Origin: Pseudomonas sp. BP8 | GTDB taxonomy: Bacteria; Pseudomonadota; Gammaproteobacteria; Pseudomonadales; Pseudomonadaceae | Assembly (NCBI RefSeq): GCF_017875955.1 | Contig: NZ_JAGINK010000001.1 | Location: 1,526,001 to 1,590,000, forward strand | DNA: 64,000 nucleotides | Reading direction: 5' to 3' | Shown: positions 4,526 through 48,238 of the stretch, in pieces | Layout of the letters: the number at the start of each line of letters is the position of its first letter | How positions within the stretch are numbered: position 1 is the stretch's first letter | Notes under the pieces: model-generated | What the model was told of the DNA's origin: nothing | The model's input: only the letters and a program-made list of their open reading frames with translations | Databases searched by the model: none | Position numbers and translations under genes: made by a program

Positions 4526-6261
4526 TGAACATTGCCATCGTTACTGCCTGCCCGAATGGCCAAGTGTCGAGTGTGCTCAGTGCACGCCTGTTGGCGGCTG
4601 CCGCGCAGCGGCGGGGTTGGAGCACCAGCGTCGAAGTACAGGATGCCGAGCATCCAGAACGACGCCTGAGCGCGGCGCAGATCGCCGAAGCCGACTGGGT
4701 GCTGGTGATCAGCACCGGGCCGGTCGAACTGTCGCGGTTTGTCGGCAAGCGCCTGTTCCAGAGCACACCGGCCCAGGCCCTGGCAGACCGAGAAGGCTTC
4801 CTCGACGAGGCGGCAGCGAATGCCCAGCTGCACGTCGCCAGCACTGCGGCCGAGACCCCGGCTACGCTCGGCGTGCCGCGTTTGGTTGCGGTCACGGCCT
4901 GCCCGACCGGCGTCGCGCACACCTTCATGGCCGCCGAAGCCCTGCAACAGGCTGCGCAGCAGCTGGGCTACGAATTGATCGTGGAAACCCAGGGCTCGGT
5001 CGGCGCGCGCAATCCGTTGTCGGCAGCGGCGATCGCCGAGGCTGACGTGGTGCTGCTGGCGGCCGACATTGAAGTGCCGACCGCGCGCTTCGCCGGCAAG
5101 CGTATCTACCGCTGCGGCACCAGCATCGCCCTCAAGCAGGCCAAGGCCACCCTCGACAAGGCCCTGCTCGAAGGCAAGCTGGAGAGCGCGGCCGAGGCCA
5201 CTGGCGAAGCGTCGAATACAGGCGAGAAGGCCGGCGTCTACAAACACCTGCTGACCGGCGTTTCGTTCATGTTGCCGATGGTGGTGGCGGGCGGCCTGCT
5301 GATCGCGTTGTCCTATGTGTTTGGCATCAATGCCCACGAAGTGCCCGGCACCCTGGCGGCAGCGCTGATGCAGATTGGTGACGGTGCCGCGTTCAAATTG
5401 ATGGTGCCGCTGCTGGCGGGCTATATCGCCTGGTCGATCGCTGATCGTCCCGGGCTGGCCCCGGGCATGATTGGCGGGATGCTCGCGACCACCCTTGGCG
5501 CGGGTTTCATTGGCGGCATCGTCGCAGGCTTTCTCGCCGGCTACAGCGCCAAGGCCATCAGCCGCTGGGTAAATTTGCCGAGCAGCCTCGATGCGCTCAA
5601 GCCGATCCTGATCATTCCGCTGCTGGCCAGCCTGTTTACCGGCCTGGTGATGATCTACGTGGTCGGCCAGCCCGTGGCGGCCATGCTCGCCGGCTTGACC
5701 CAGTTTCTCGACAGCATGGGCACCACCAATGCCATCCTGCTCGGGCTGCTGCTTGGCGGCATGATGTGCGTTGACCTGGGTGGGCCGATCAACAAGGCCG
5801 CCTATGCCTTCTCGGTGGGCCTGCTGTCGACCCACAGTTATGCACCGATGGCGGCGACCATGGCGGCGGGCATGGTGCCGCCGATTGGCCTGGGCATCGC
5901 TACCTTCATTGCCCGCAGCAAGTTCGCTCAGAGTGAGCGCGAGGCTGGCAAGGCGGCGCTGGCGCTGGGCTTGTGCTTCATCTCCGAGGGGGCAATTCCG
6001 TTTGCGGCCAAGGACCCGCTGCGGGTGATTCCGGCGAGTATTGCCGGTGGCGCGCTGACCGGTGCGTTGTCGATGTACTTTGGCTGCAAGCTGATGGCGC
6101 CGCATGGCGGGCTGTTTGTGCTGCTGATCCCGAATGCCATCAACCATGCCTTGCTGTACTTGCTGGCGATTGTTGCCGGGAGCCTGGTGACGGCGCTGGT
6201 GTATGCGCTGATCAAGCGCCCGGAGCAGGTCGAGCTGGCGGTTGCGCCCGCCAAAGCCTGA
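4525..6261 (+). CDS. fruA: PTS fructose-specific EIIBC permease
   Basis: This inner-membrane permease of 578 residues imports fructose and phosphorylates it at C1. Two EIIB-type domains come first. The N-terminal copy (VTACPNG, Cys 9) is the duplicated IIB' domain. The second, around residues 115-215, has the active-site motif AVTACPTGVAHT with Cys 126. A IIC domain of multiple hydrophobic segments fills about 240-560 and includes GGPINKAAYAF, a conserved IIC motif. The ATG at 4525 overlaps the fruK stop and has AAGAGGG six bases upstream; a TTG two codons earlier is an unlikely start. It is the last gene of fruBKA and is followed by a REP pair. Confidence 0.96.
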   Translation: MNIAIVTACPNGQVSSVLSARLLAAAAQRRGWSTSVEVQDAEHPERRLSAAQIAEADWVLVISTGPVELSRFVGKRLFQSTPAQALADREGFLDEAAANAQLHVASTAAETPATLGVPRLVAVTACPTGVAHTFMAAEALQQAAQQLGYELIVETQGSVGARNPLSAAAIAEADVVLLAADIEVPTARFAGKRIYRCGTSIALKQAKATLDKALLEGKLESAAEATGEASNTGEKAGVYKHLLTGVSFMLPMVVAGGLLIALSYVFGINAHEVPGTLAAALMQIGDGAAFKLMVPLLAGYIAWSIADRPGLAPGMIGGMLATTLGAGFIGGIVAGFLAGYSAKAISRWVNLPSSLDALKPILIIPLLASLFTGLVMIYVVGQPVAAMLAGLTQFLDSMGTTNAILLGLLLGGMMCVDLGGPINKAAYAFSVGLLSTHSYAPMAATMAAGMVPPIGLGIATFIARSKFAQSEREAGKAALALGLCFISEGAIPFAAKDPLRVIPASIAGGALTGALSMYFGCKLMAPHGGLFVLLIPNAINHALLYLLAIVAGSLVTALVYALIKRPEQVELAVAPAKA

Positions 6262-6274
6262 GGCAGTTGCTATA

Positions 6275-6360
6275 CCGGCCTCTTCGCGGGGCAAGCCCGC
6301 TCCTACAGGATTGTGGCGTGCTGCAAATCCTGTAGGAGCGGGCTTGCCCCGCGAAACCGG
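6275..6360. repeat. REP palindrome pair (P. putida type), inverted orientation
   Basis: Two copies of the P. putida REP element face each other at 6275-6309 and 6329-6360. Each contains CGCGGGGCAAGCCCGC and TCCTACAGG or the complement. They sit 13 bases after the fruA stop and could fold into a long hairpin that ends or stabilises the fruBKA transcript. Confidence 0.9.
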
Positions 6361-6415
6361 CGAAGCCGGTGCCATACACCACGATAGCCGGCGCAGTCGA
6401 CTGATCTATACGCAT

Positions 6416-6637
6416 CTAGCGCCGCTGCTTGTGCCGCAACGGCACCAGCAACTCCCCCAACCCGTTGTGATCGATCTCGTGCATCAATGCCAGCAACGCC
6501 CCCAGCTCCCCTGGCGGAAAGCCCTTGCGGGCAAACCAGCCCAGGTAGTCGCCGGGCAGGTCGGCGATCAGCCGGCCCTGGTATTTGCCGAAGGGCATGG
6601 TCCGCGTGACCAGCAGTTGCAGCGATTCGGGATTCAT
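6416..6637 (-). CDS. DUF3820 family protein
   Basis: This is a small cytoplasmic protein of about 73 residues. The sequence runs MNPESLQLLVTRTMPFGKYQ and then contains a GDYLGWFARKGFPPGELG segment, which I recognise as the DUF3820 family (compact proteins sometimes annotated as putative quorum-sensing-regulated virulence factor). The biochemical role is unknown. The start could be the ATG at 6637 or the ATG two codons earlier at 6643; neither has a strong ribosome site. It is read toward the REP pair, convergent with fruA, and divergent from the DUF2383 gene. It does not appear to share an operon with anything in the window. Confidence 0.8.
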   Translation of the reverse strand: MNPESLQLLVTRTMPFGKYQGRLIADLPGDYLGWFARKGFPPGELGALLALMHEIDHNGLGELLVPLRHKQRR

Positions 6638-6742
6638 CGTCATGCCCGTCTGAAGGGAAAGCCGCGACCATACTGCAAACTGCACGAGCGCCCAAGCGGC
6701 GATCATGCAGAACGCCGGTTAGGCCTCTGTCTCGCATAAACT

Positions 6743-6755
6743 CAACTCATTGATT
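6743..6755 (-). promoter_or_regulatory. Candidate IHF site
   Basis: Read on the minus strand this is AATCAATGAGTTG, a full match to the IHF consensus WATCAA-N4-TTR. It lies in an AT-rich tract about 35 bp upstream of a sigma-54-like promoter, where IHF bending helps a distant activator reach the polymerase. A short consensus like this also occurs by chance. Confidence 0.4.
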
Positions 6756-6782
6756 TTATTAGTTTTATTTTTTATCGGCGGC

Positions 6783-6799
6783 TTGGCACGAAGGCTGCT
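6783..6799 (+). promoter_or_regulatory. Candidate sigma-54 promoter of the DUF2383 gene
   Basis: TTGGCACGAAGGCTGCT matches the -24/-12 consensus YTGGCACG-N4-TTGCW in all but one position. It has GG and GC exactly ten bases apart. It would start transcription about 28 bases before the ATG at 6839. Confidence 0.6.
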
Positions 6800-6838
6800 C
6801 TATTCATTAGGACTATCATCTGCCAAGGAGTTTGAGCC

Positions 6839-7315
6839 ATGAGTAATCCAAACAAAGACGTGATTGACGTTCTCAACGACCTCATCGAATTCAGCAAGGA
6901 TGGCGAGAAAGGCTTCAAAGAGTCTGCCGGTGATGTGAAAAACCCAGAGCTGAAGGCGTTCTTCGCCCAACGTGGCACTGAGTGCTCCAGCGCCGCCGCC
7001 GAGCTGCAAGGCGAAGTGCGTCGTCTGGGTGGCGATCCAGAAACCTCTACCAGCCTCAGCGGCGACCTGCACCGTGGCTGGGTCAACCTCAAGTCGCTGG
7101 TCACCGGCAAGGACGAGGAGGCGGTGCTCAACGAAGTTGAGCGTGGCGAAGACCATGCCCTCAAAGCCTACAAGGACGCTCGTGAGAAGCTGGTCAAGCT
7201 GGGTCGTAGCGTGAGTGATCCGACCTACACCTTGGTTGAAAAGCAGCTGCAAGGCGTTCAGCGTAATCACGACCAGGTAAAAGCCCTGCGTGACGCCGCA
7301 CGCGCACGCTCTTAA
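6839..7315 (+). CDS. PA2169-type four-helix-bundle protein (DUF2383)
   Basis: This is a 158-residue, highly charged, all-helical cytoplasmic protein. The pattern VIDVLNDLIEFSKDGEKGF followed by FFAQRGTECSSAAAELQGEV resembles the ferritin-like DUF2383/PA2169 family, usually annotated as four-helix-bundle proteins. Its function is not established; a stress or storage role is only a guess from the fold. The ATG has a good AAGGAG site eight bases upstream. Upstream lie a sigma-54-like promoter and an IHF-like site. The 3' end overlaps the convergent diguanylate cyclase gene by four bases. Confidence 0.85.
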   Translation: MSNPNKDVIDVLNDLIEFSKDGEKGFKESAGDVKNPELKAFFAQRGTECSSAAAELQGEVRRLGGDPETSTSLSGDLHRGWVNLKSLVTGKDEEAVLNEVERGEDHALKAYKDAREKLVKLGRSVSDPTYTLVEKQLQGVQRNHDQVKALRDAARARS

Positions 7316-8814
7316 GCGAGCGGCCCCTCTATCCGGTTACGGCCTTCGGCCTTGGCCCGATAGAGGGCTTCATCCGCCTCACCCAGCAGTCCGGTCAGGT
7401 CTTGCTGGGTGCCGGGCATGTACAGGCCGATACCGATACTGACTGTCACCGGTTGCGTATCCGCACCGAATGGCGCCAGCGCCGCCACATCCGCCCTGAT
7501 CCGTTCTGCAAGCATCAAGGCGCCGGGCAATTCTGTCTCCGGCAGCACCACCTGAAATTCCTCTCCCCCGTAGCGCGCTGCCAGGTCCGACGGCCGGCGG
7601 ATACAGCGCTCGATGGTCTTTGCTACTTCGCGCAGGGCATGATCGCCACCGGCATGGCCATGGCGCTGATTGAATGCCTTGAAGTAGTCGACATCCACCA
7701 TGAGCACCGCCAATGGCCTGCGATTGCGCTGGGCGCGTGCCCATTCCTGGCGCAGCACCTGGTCGAGTCGGCGCCGGTTGGCCAGGCCGGTCAGGCTATC
7801 GGTCGCGGCCAGGGTCGCCAAGCCTTGCTCGGCATCGTGCCGACGGCGCAGCTCGCGGCCAAGCAGCAGCGTCAGCCAGAGGATACCGATGCACAGTACG
7901 CCGGTGGCCAAGCTGACCACGATCGCCGTGCGCCGCCACGACTCGAACACCTCATCGCTGCCATGCACGACCAGTACGATCAGCGGCAGGTCGGCAACCC
8001 GCGAGAAGGTGAACATGCGTTGTTCGTCCGAGACGCCTGACTTGGCAGTGAAATTACCGCTGTGCTCGCTGAGGATGCGCTGGAAGTTCACTCGTTTGCT
8101 GTAGTCGGAACCGATCAACGGGTCATCGGCACGCGAGGGCTGGCGGGCCAGCAGTTGCCCTTGGGTATTGAACAGATTGATGCTGCTGTCCTTGCCGATG
8201 TCCAGGCGTTGGAACAGCTCGCTGAAGTAGCTCAGGCGCAACGCCCCGGCAGCCAGGCCGGCAAACGCGCCTTGCGCATCGTTGATCCGCCGGCTGAAGC
8301 TGATCGACCATTCCATGTCACCGAATTGGGCCCTGAACGGCGGACCGATCAGCAGGCCCAGGTCGGGGTTGTGCATGTGCGCCTTGAACACCCCGGTTTC
8401 GCCGAAGTTGGCCTGGCGCGGCACGCTGTTGGCCGAGTCACCGACCACGTTGCCCTGGCGGTCGAGCCAAAGTACATCGCCCTTGCGCCGATCGACGAAG
8501 GCTTCATTGAACAGCAGGCGCTGGCGCAGCTGGCTGGGCACTTCTGGCAGTTCCTTGCGCCCGACCGCCCAGATCAGCCCTTGCAGCGACTGATCGTAGA
8601 GTTCGACGTTGCGCAGGATATCGCTCTCGATCAGCTGGACGATGTTGCTCGACGAGCGAATGGCCGACTGCTCGACGCTGTCACGCTCGCGGGCCAGCAG
8701 GTAGCTGACGATAGCGAGGATGGCGAGCACGGCGAAACAACTGCCCAGGTTGAGGAACAGTTCAGGGTGTGACTTGTACAGGGCGTAACGCGGTGCTCGA
8801 TTGGGTAACGTCAT
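7312..8814 (-). CDS. Membrane-bound diguanylate cyclase with periplasmic sensor domain
   Basis: This 500-residue enzyme is predicted to make cyclic di-GMP from two GTP. A first membrane segment lies at about residues 23-42 (LGSCFAVLAILAIVSYLLA). A periplasmic sensing region, probably of dCache/PAS type, follows at about 45-285. A second membrane segment (IVVSLATGVLCIGILWLTLL) precedes a C-terminal GGDEF domain. The active-site motif is GGEEF at 416-420. An RPSD inhibitory I-site lies at 407-410 with the usual five-residue spacing, so it should be active and feedback-inhibited. There is no EAL domain. In a P. putida-like cell it could feed the adhesin and biofilm programme encoded nearby, but nothing here shows a direct link. 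Confidence 0.93.
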   Translation of the reverse strand: MTLPNRAPRYALYKSHPELFLNLGSCFAVLAILAIVSYLLARERDSVEQSAIRSSSNIVQLIESDILRNVELYDQSLQGLIWAVGRKELPEVPSQLRQRLLFNEAFVDRRKGDVLWLDRQGNVVGDSANSVPRQANFGETGVFKAHMHNPDLGLLIGPPFRAQFGDMEWSISFSRRINDAQGAFAGLAAGALRLSYFSELFQRLDIGKDSSINLFNTQGQLLARQPSRADDPLIGSDYSKRVNFQRILSEHSGNFTAKSGVSDEQRMFTFSRVADLPLIVLVVHGSDEVFESWRRTAIVVSLATGVLCIGILWLTLLLGRELRRRHDAEQGLATLAATDSLTGLANRRRLDQVLRQEWARAQRNRRPLAVLMVDVDYFKAFNQRHGHAGGDHALREVAKTIERCIRRPSDLAARYGGEEFQVVLPETELPGALMLAERIRADVAALAPFGADTQPVTVSIGIGLYMPGTQQDLTGLLGEADEALYRAKAEGRNRIEGPLA

Positions 8815-46684: not shown

Positions 46685-48238
46685 TCATTTAATCCCCAAC
46701 CGCCGCGCCAGGCGCCCAAGGTTGGCGCGATCAAGGCCCAACTCGCGCGCTGCAGCGGCCCAGTTGTTCTGGTGTCGGTGCAGACAGGCCTCAATGACCT
46801 TTTGCTGATACGCATCGACCGCCTCGCGCAGGTCGCCCGTCACCGGCGCGAGGCCTGCGGCCAACGCAGGCAAGGGCGCAGCAGTGTTCAGCTCAGCCAT
46901 GGCACGCAGGTCGAGATCATCTGCCTCCAGGGTAAGAATCCGCGGCCGCTGCCGATGCTGGCCAAGGGCCTTGAGGGCCGAGCGGCCAATCAGGTGCTCC
47001 AGCTCGCGCACATTTCCCGGCCAATCGTAGGCAAGCAATGCCGCCTGGGCTGCGTTGCTCAGGCGCAGGCTGTTAAGGCCCAGGCGCGAACGGTTCTGCT
47101 CGAGGAAGTAGCCTGCCAGTAGCAGCACATCACGACCTCGTTCGCGCAACGGCGGGACGTGCAGCGGATAGACGCTGAGCCGGTGGTAGAAGTCGGCGCG
47201 GTAACGGCCGTTGCGCACTTCGTCGGCCAGGTCACGGTTGGTTGCGGCGATCAGGCGCACATCGACCCGGTGTTCGCGGTCCGAACCCAGCCGTTGCAAT
47301 TGGCCGCTCTGCAATACGCGCAGCAGCTTGGCCTGCACGGTCAGCGACAGTTCACCAACCTCGTCAAGAAACAGCGTGCCGCCATTGGCCAACTCAAACT
47401 TGCCGCGGCGCTCGCCATGGGCGCCGGTAAAGGCGCCACGGACATGGCCGAACAACTCGCTCTCGACCAACGTTTCGGGCAAGGCCGCACAGTTCAGGCT
47501 GATCAATGGCTGCTTGGCGCGGCTGCTGGCTTGATGCAAGGCCAAGGCCACCAGCTCTTTGCCGACACCGGTCTCGCCGGTGATCAGCACGGTCAGGTCG
47601 CTGCCGCCGACCAGGCGAATTTCCTCGACCAGGCGCTTGTGCGCGGTGCTCTGGCCAATCAGTTCCTTGTCCTGGCCGCTGGCCTGGCGATAGACCTCGG
47701 CGCGCTGATGTTCATCCTCGGCGCGCAGGGCCAGGTGCTCGATGCGTTCAGCCACGGTAACGGTGGCCGCCGCCAGGCTGGCGAAAGCTTGCAGGGCATC
47801 CAGCTCAAGGCTCTGGAATTGCCCCGGGGTCAACGCATCGAGGGTCAGCAGGCCCCAGGGTTGCTCGTCGACCATCAACGGGCAGCCCATGCAGTCGTGC
47901 ACTTCGAGGTCGGCGTGCGGCGCATTGACCAGGCCGTCGTAGGGGTCGGGCAACTCGCTGTCGCTGGCGAAGCGCGTTGGCTCATGGCTACTGAGCAGGA
48001 TTTGAAAGCGTGGATGCTCGCTGACTTTGAAGCGCCGTCCGAGGGTGTCTGGCGCCAGACCGTCGACCGCCAGCGGCACCAGCCACTCGCCATCCAGCCG
48101 CAGCAGGGCAGCGGCGTCGCACGGCAGCAGGCTGCGCATGGCCTCCAGCAGACGGCGGTAACGCTCCTTGTCGGGCAGGTCGCGGGAGAGATCGCTGACC
48201 AGAGGGAGGAGGGCGGTGAGCAGTGGCTTTGCGGTCAT
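46685..48238 (-). CDS. norR: Nitric oxide-responsive sigma-54 activator NorR
   Basis: This 517-residue enhancer-binding protein activates NO detoxification genes. A GAF domain occupies about residues 20-170 and in this family holds a mononuclear iron that binds NO; HDCMGCPLMV carries the cysteine expected there. The AAA+ domain (about 190-430) has Walker A GETGVGKE, the sigma-54 contact loop GAFTGA and Walker B-type LFLDEVGE. A Fis-type helix-turn-helix ends the protein (NNWAAAARELGLDRANLGRL). GGAG lies just before the ATG. It is divergent from hmp, with two NorR-type sites between them, so it most likely regulates hmp and possibly itself. Confidence 0.95.
   Translation of the reverse strand: MTAKPLLTALLPLVSDLSRDLPDKERYRRLLEAMRSLLPCDAAALLRLDGEWLVPLAVDGLAPDTLGRRFKVSEHPRFQILLSSHEPTRFASDSELPDPYDGLVNAPHADLEVHDCMGCPLMVDEQPWGLLTLDALTPGQFQSLELDALQAFASLAAATVTVAERIEHLALRAEDEHQRAEVYRQASGQDKELIGQSTAHKRLVEEIRLVGGSDLTVLITGETGVGKELVALALHQASSRAKQPLISLNCAALPETLVESELFGHVRGAFTGAHGERRGKFELANGGTLFLDEVGELSLTVQAKLLRVLQSGQLQRLGSDREHRVDVRLIAATNRDLADEVRNGRYRADFYHRLSVYPLHVPPLRERGRDVLLLAGYFLEQNRSRLGLNSLRLSNAAQAALLAYDWPGNVRELEHLIGRSALKALGQHRQRPRILTLEADDLDLRAMAELNTAAPLPALAAGLAPVTGDLREAVDAYQQKVIEACLHRHQNNWAAAARELGLDRANLGRLARRLGIK

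Follow-up and report, generated by a model that had tools for sequence, protein, structure and literature searches.

A conserved sigma-54 promoter with an IHF site and a paired enhancer, probably read by AlgB, upstream of a DUF2383 gene in Pseudomonas

Introduction

IHF-assisted sigma-54 promoters of the kind served by NtrC-family activators have a -24/-12 element with an IHF site between the enhancer and the promoter, and the locus described here is arranged in the same way, including a pair of enhancer sites some 70-113 bp before the -24 box. One such activator is AlgB, the NtrC-family response regulator of the KinB-AlgB pair. AlgB ChIP-seq in the P. syringae group is said to have been described by Xie in 2022, and a KinB/RpoN regulon reportedly by Damron in 2012. 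Excerpts of the published accounts state that AlgB contains GAFTGA and is phosphorylated by BphP and dephosphorylated by KinB (PMC6932827), that there are 3 AlgB-bound sites at algD (PMC10418997), and that alginate is still normal after an algB insertion in Azotobacter (PMC6979010). The literature at hand, seen in excerpt, approaches AlgB by way of algD, biofilm, and virulence, whereas here we are led to a genus-wide sigma-54 regulon of small proteins. Neither a DNA consensus for AlgB nor a list of its direct sigma-54 targets was found in the available portions of the AlgB literature, and the AlgB passages available from the eLife SELEX atlas hold no motif text.

In P. aeruginosa, algB is presumably PA5483, and we take the adjoining PA5482 to encode a DUF1328 protein. 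PA5482-PA5481 form an operon in which PA5481 is an Ivy-type lysozyme inhibitor, according to an excerpt of its description (PMC4981712), and the available text on that operon has no mention of control by AlgB. In our host genome, the pair of genes for DUF1328 and Ivy that adjoins algB looks like its counterpart. The other relevant P. aeruginosa protein is PA2169, which in the excerpts available has an E-D-H triad for which metal binding was not shown (PMC3539698) and which, together with algB, is raised by inhibition of Lol (PMC7685553).

The DUF2383 gene and its sigma-54 promoter

The window, meaning the whole stretch of 64,000 nucleotides that was analyzed, encodes on its plus strand at 6839-7315 a four-helix-bundle protein of 158 aa belonging to the PA2169 family, DUF2383/TIGR02284, scoring 142.7 and 146.1 bits against profile cut-offs of 30.8 and 44.8. 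PA2169 (PDB 4etr) has this family in common with it and is the sole solved structure related by sequence that was found. The gene has a ribosome-binding site AAGGAG at 6825-6830 (plus strand), of which AAGGA is kept across the orthologue alignment. On the other side is a divergent gene of the QSregVF_b family (PF12843, by profile match), at 6416-6637 on the minus strand if its start codon is as we read it. DUF2383 proteins are matched in 187 of 199 sampled Pseudomonas genomes, some of the matches being weak (about 1e-8), and the best named loci are from the P. putida group, for example P. entomophila with 91% protein identity, so that the window is assigned to a Pseudomonas of this group. PP_0795-0797 do not occur in the main text of the CbrB and FleQ target papers.

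The initial annotation had pointed out a near-consensus -24/-12 element, TTGGCACGAAGGCTGCT, at 6783-6799, and it is present: TGGCACG-N5-TGCW is matched exactly at 6784-6799 on the plus strand (TGGCACG-AAGGC-TGC, with GG at 6785-6786 and GC at 6797-6798), and nowhere else in the window. When up to one mismatch is allowed, there are 7 window matches for 6.5 expected, and the exact pattern has 14 matches in the single-contig 6.0-Mb genome versus 11 for a reversed control, so the -24/-12 match by itself proves little. Compared with TGGCACG-N4-TTGCW, the element fits except at the first position of the -12 box, where it has C in place of T. The promoter geometry predicts a plus-strand transcription start at 6810, 12 nt after the -12 C, in agreement with the start near 6810 that the initial annotation predicted.

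The IHF site, at 6743-6755 on the minus strand, matches WATCAR-N4-TTR exactly (YAAN4TTGATW on the window strand), the only exact match in the window, where 0.22 were expected. The earlier description of a full IHF consensus in an AT-rich tract holds, with its spacing of about 35 bp corrected to 28 bp, counted to the -24 T.

Conservation is what gives these matches weight. The sample was 70 DUF2383 upstream regions, 30 given by homology search and 40 picked as a spread from its list. Five of them (L041, L048, L054, L058, and L066) lack both the usual neighbors and any site comparable to this one and were left out of the counts, so that the remaining 65 are partly selected for having a sigma-54 site. 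In these 65 of 70, the -24/-12 element is 51 to 81 nt 5' of the ATG, and the QSregVF_b neighbor is present at 62 of the 65. When conservation is read by column in a MAFFT alignment of the 65 regions, with no motif required, the T, G, G, and C of the -24 box and the G and C of the -12 box are each found in 65/65; the boxes also show A in 64, the next G in 62, and the T of -12 in 64, and unlike TGGC and GC, the spacer and flanks vary. The full IHF consensus is found in 35 of the 65 tracts, compared with 0.8 expected when the same AT-rich tracts are shuffled, and its offset from the -24 T is fixed, 31 being at -41 and 4 at -40. The initial annotation had suggested looking for conservation of both sites before orthologues, and since both are conserved there, both are judged to be real. 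A second set, 80 loci from named genomes (19 of which have upstream DNA in common with the first 70), has the sigma-54 box at 80/80 and the enhancer discussed below above threshold at 76/80, with the 4 misses scoring at or just under threshold. Among 800 shuffled 120-bp tracts, 3 reached the sigma-54 score. By comparison of sequences, then, we regard it as close to certain that a sigma-54 promoter with an IHF site precedes the DUF2383 gene.

A paired enhancer

Further upstream there is an enhancer that the initial annotation missed. It appears in the orthologue alignment as an extra conserved block at 6671-6715, consisting of TACTGCAAACTGCACGA, 15 bp, and TCATGCAGAACGC; from this enhancer to the ATG, what is conserved in blocks corresponds to the IHF site, the -24/-12 element, and the ribosome-binding site. 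Site A, at 6671-6687 (plus strand), is conserved, has the consensus TCRTGCA-N3-YGCACGA and the top score with the matrix described below, and is a putative AlgB site. Site B, at 6703-6715 (plus strand), lies 32 bp past site A, is also recognized by the matrix, and has conserved spacing: its TGCA is 78 bp 5' of the -24 T in this window, and the TGCA-to-TGG distance is 76-78 bp in 62 of the 65 orthologues. The enhancer consensus is the palindrome TCRTGCA-N3-YGCAYGA, of which no mention was found in the available portions of the literature on IHF-assisted sigma-54 promoters.

Genome searches with the half-sites alone, at fixed or variable spacing, gave mostly scattered matches; the enhancer arrangement emerged when a half-site was coupled to a downstream sigma-54 box, as CATGCA-N56..86-TGGCAYR-N5-TGC. 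This joint pattern is matched in 187 of 199 genomes of the genus, mostly one to four times each, compared with 28 of 199 for the reversed pattern. In 6 genomes, 5 of which were picked after the genus-wide pattern listing was known, 19 of 22 matches are 93-95 bp long where 77-107 was permitted. Some matches, L161 and L163 among them, look fortuitous.

The algB neighborhood

The host genome (G000) has 19 full and 3 weak matches to sigma-54 activators. In 15 neighborhoods of about 19.5 kb around pattern matches, algB is found in 4 (L194, L204, L210, and L211), and at the cut-off used there is no other activator in any of the 15. The G000 activator beside the candidate targets is one that we take to be AlgB. 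The gene after it encodes a kinase with the KinB sensor domain (PF16767, 124 bits), which supports this identity, and the protein has GAFTGA, the sigma-54 contact; hence G000 has the same order of an NtrC-type AlgB and a KinB-domain kinase as the described system. No NCBIfam model at cut-off for AlgB was among the matches listed. The window has another sigma-54 activator at about 47162-47662 on the minus strand, presumably NorR-like; at this locus (L181) the enhancer arrangement was not found.

The algB-kinB cluster of G000 (L205, G000:414500-434000) contains a three-BON-domain gene, followed by genes for a 96-aa protein with no Pfam match, a DUF1328 protein, and an Ivy lysozyme inhibitor, and it has 2 sigma-54 promoters. 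The promoter of the 96-aa/DUF1328/Ivy operon consists of TCGTGCAAATCGCACGA...TCGTGCAGGATACG, an IHF-like tract, and TGGCATGCAGGCTGC.

The enhancer with its sigma-54 box is found at 48 of 52 algB regions, which share ancestry by inherited synteny and hence are not independent events. The 52 are made up of 31/32 algB loci, the 31 being 30 of the genus and 1 (L244) from another genus of the family, and 17/20 further algB upstream regions that were hand-picked from the match list. The regions lacking the paired pattern are L245, L267, L276, and L284, of which L245, the miss among the 32, has a 57%-identical AlgB from another family. Around position 1491 of L245, there is an apparent TTGCACTCTGCACG within about 40 bp of the start of the algB-like gene, possibly for autoregulation. 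Many genomes of the P. putida group differ in that the enhancer at the sigma-54 box closest to algB has diverged, the canonical one being found before the next operon. The arrangement is found at 0/21 other activator-type loci of G000, 0/25 AlgD-type loci, and 0/310 shuffled algB loci. At L187, there is a GCAACTT...CTAA sequence 5' of algB, similar to what we take to be the AlgU promoter consensus.

DUF2383 genes also occur at algB itself. In 6 genomes (L257-L262), a divergent DUF2383 protein of 23-28% identity (the one scanned matches PF09537 at 9e-26) is encoded directly behind a BON gene adjoining algB, with the BON genes 41-48% identical to that of G000, and in a seventh (L263), a divergent DUF2383 gene adjoins algB with no BON gene. 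The DUF2383 family thus appears, in these sequences, to be tied to AlgB in 2 ways. In L263, the DUF2383-like gene is itself preceded by half-sites, an IHF-like tract, and a degenerate -12 box.

Tests of the AlgB assignment

A two-site matrix was trained on 48 enhancers from the algB side, to the exclusion of all DUF2383 sequences. Over 127,968 window positions on both strands, it ranks 6671 first (2.96); the next score, -4.4, belongs to this site in the reverse reading, and no unrelated place exceeds -9.0. A 1-in-10,000 threshold is exceeded by 64 of the 70 DUF2383 upstream regions, those below being L038 and the 5 siteless loci L041, L048, L054, L058, and L066; this is a strong test, not a fully independent one, as the training sites were gathered by a pattern first noticed at DUF2383. 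A count of 7-letter words in the sequence upstream of sigma-54 boxes pointing away from algB (L245 not included) was given no enhancer pattern, used none from DUF2383, and is therefore free of that fault; it ranks TCGTGCA first, in 51/51 algB regions.

A second comparison is of distribution. AlgB is found in 191 of the 199 genomes of the genus; elsewhere in the class, 368 genomes were sampled, and 2 have one at the cut-off. The joint pattern is present in 185/191 genomes with algB versus 2/8 without (p = 3e-7, ancestry uncorrected), leaving 6 algB-containing genomes with no match. The 2 exceptions are G138, whose match is GC-rich and lacks an IHF-like tract, and G093. DUF2383 matches follow the same division, 186/191 versus 1/8 (p = 3e-9, ancestry uncorrected), where the first count takes in the divergent genes beside algB and the 8 genomes could be a few clades. 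G118 (L254), the one genome that has a DUF2383 gene and no algB, shows neither box nor enhancer at that gene. Both are also absent at DUF2383 homologues in another gene context in algB-containing genomes (L249-L251, L253, and L256), a difference within the PA2169 family, and both are present at the re-examined loci L246-L248, L252, and L255.

From these comparisons, we consider AlgB the highly probable activator of the DUF2383 promoter. The initial annotation had proposed RpoN acting with an unknown enhancer-binding protein; RpoN, along with IHF, is upheld by comparison, and for the activator a name, AlgB, can now be put forward on good, though indirect, support.

Alternative readings

The alternative that survives best, though we think it unlikely, keeps the sigma-54/IHF promoter and has TCRTGCA-N3-YGCAYGA read by another enhancer-binding protein, with some targets merely adjoining algB. 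G000 has 18 further full sigma-54 activators, several with no motif known to us, the synteny with algB could be one old event, and the motif is rare in AlgD-type regions: with up to 2 mismatches, it is in 3 of 23 readable upstream regions of this type, algD being a reported AlgB target. One of the AlgD-type loci (L298, G036) has a perfect and a partial enhancer copy, at -774 and -807, 33 bp apart. Against another activator, none but algB turned up in any of the 15 target neighborhoods, the other activator-type loci of G000 lack the arrangement, its presence largely tracks algB across genomes, and L244, from a different genus of the family, shows it beside algB as well.

It is very improbable that the sigma-54 element is secondary and that the gene is driven by a factor of the sigma-70 type, either RpoS or, as is possible for PA2169 in P. 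aeruginosa, AlgU. There is a weak CTATCAT -10-like box at 6813-6819, and in the excerpts available, Lol inhibition in P. aeruginosa raises PA2169 14- to 24-fold in a response whose alginate part is AlgU dependent (PMC7685553). However, no sigma-70 consensus pair was found within 6200-7400, and what is conserved between enhancer and ATG is the set of sigma-54, IHF, and ribosome elements already described.

A shade less probable still is that the conserved block serves the QSregVF_b gene as a sigma-70 promoter and that the DUF2383 enhancer is elsewhere. A TTGG(G/C)C...TAT pair with a 17-bp spacer does read toward QSregVF_b through the block, and the possible boxes on the minus strand, as we read them (-35 at 6690-6695, -10 at 6667-6672), overlap it. 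Yet 3 loci that lack this neighbor (L047, L049, and L050) keep the TGCA half-sites with the box positions altered, an argument limited by L053 and L064, where the boxes differ too and the neighbor is present, and sigma-54 genes with other neighbors have the same sites at a similar distance. As the 3 loci retain the block without QSregVF_b, that promoter is disfavored and the enhancer is most likely that of the DUF2383 gene. Because the enhancer overlaps a plausible sigma-70 promoter, AlgB binding there may also repress QSregVF_b. Finally, chance matching of short consensuses, for which one could cite the genome-wide exact -24/-12 matches being about as frequent as the reversed control, is ruled out by conservation at fixed spacing across the 65 orthologous regions and the 80 named-genome loci.

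Proposed mechanism and candidate regulon

The reading as a whole, an AlgB-activated, IHF-assisted sigma-54 promoter before the DUF2383 gene, we hold to be probable, its promoter, IHF site, fixed-spacing enhancer, and repetition of the arrangement next to algB being shown by comparison. RpoN holoenzyme would wait at 6784-6798 as a closed complex, and AlgB would bind 6671-6687 and 6703-6715, with phosphorylation presumably mattering. Bending of the tract 6743-6755 by IHF would let AlgB touch RNA polymerase, ATP hydrolysis by AlgB would open the promoter, and transcription from near 6810 would yield the DUF2383 four-helix protein. With a few other genes under AlgB/RpoN control, it would form a small regulon whose role is probably in envelope stress.

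The candidate members come from the first long frame 3' of the pattern matches, which besides DUF2383 encodes DUF3509, BON-domain, and hemerythrin proteins; another match precedes a membrane-type protein with no Pfam match. The best reading of these sequences is a small regulon in which DUF2383 is joined by DUF3509, BON, DUF1328/Ivy, and hemerythrin genes. The initial annotation had guessed at a nitrogen, motility, or stress regulon. Stress fits the BON, Ivy, DUF1328, and hemerythrin companions, from which an envelope-stress role is our best guess for the DUF2383 protein; among the companion genes and conserved sites that were compared, nothing was found pointing to nitrogen or motility.

If the AlgB assignment is true, it gives AlgB a binding motif that can be tested, along with a few candidate direct targets that most of the sampled pseudomonads possess. 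The DUF2383, DUF3509, and DUF1328 proteins would gain their first physiological context, in KinB-AlgB signaling, and a clean reporter would be available for finding the KinB signal. The DUF2383 four-helix protein would thereby be linked to a little-explored AlgB gene set. We lean slightly toward a broader view in which the paired TCRTGCA-N3-YGCAYGA marks an envelope-stress regulon found throughout the genus, with AlgB as its dedicated sigma-54 activator, DUF2383 proteins as core effectors, and alginate control as a side branch.

Close to this locus, between fruA and the QSregVF_b gene at window 6270-6370, there is a long inverted repeat, CGCGGGGCAAGCCCGCTCCTACAGGAT ... ATCCTGTAGGAGCGGGCTTGCCCCGCG, which in our estimation resembles Pseudomonas REP elements.
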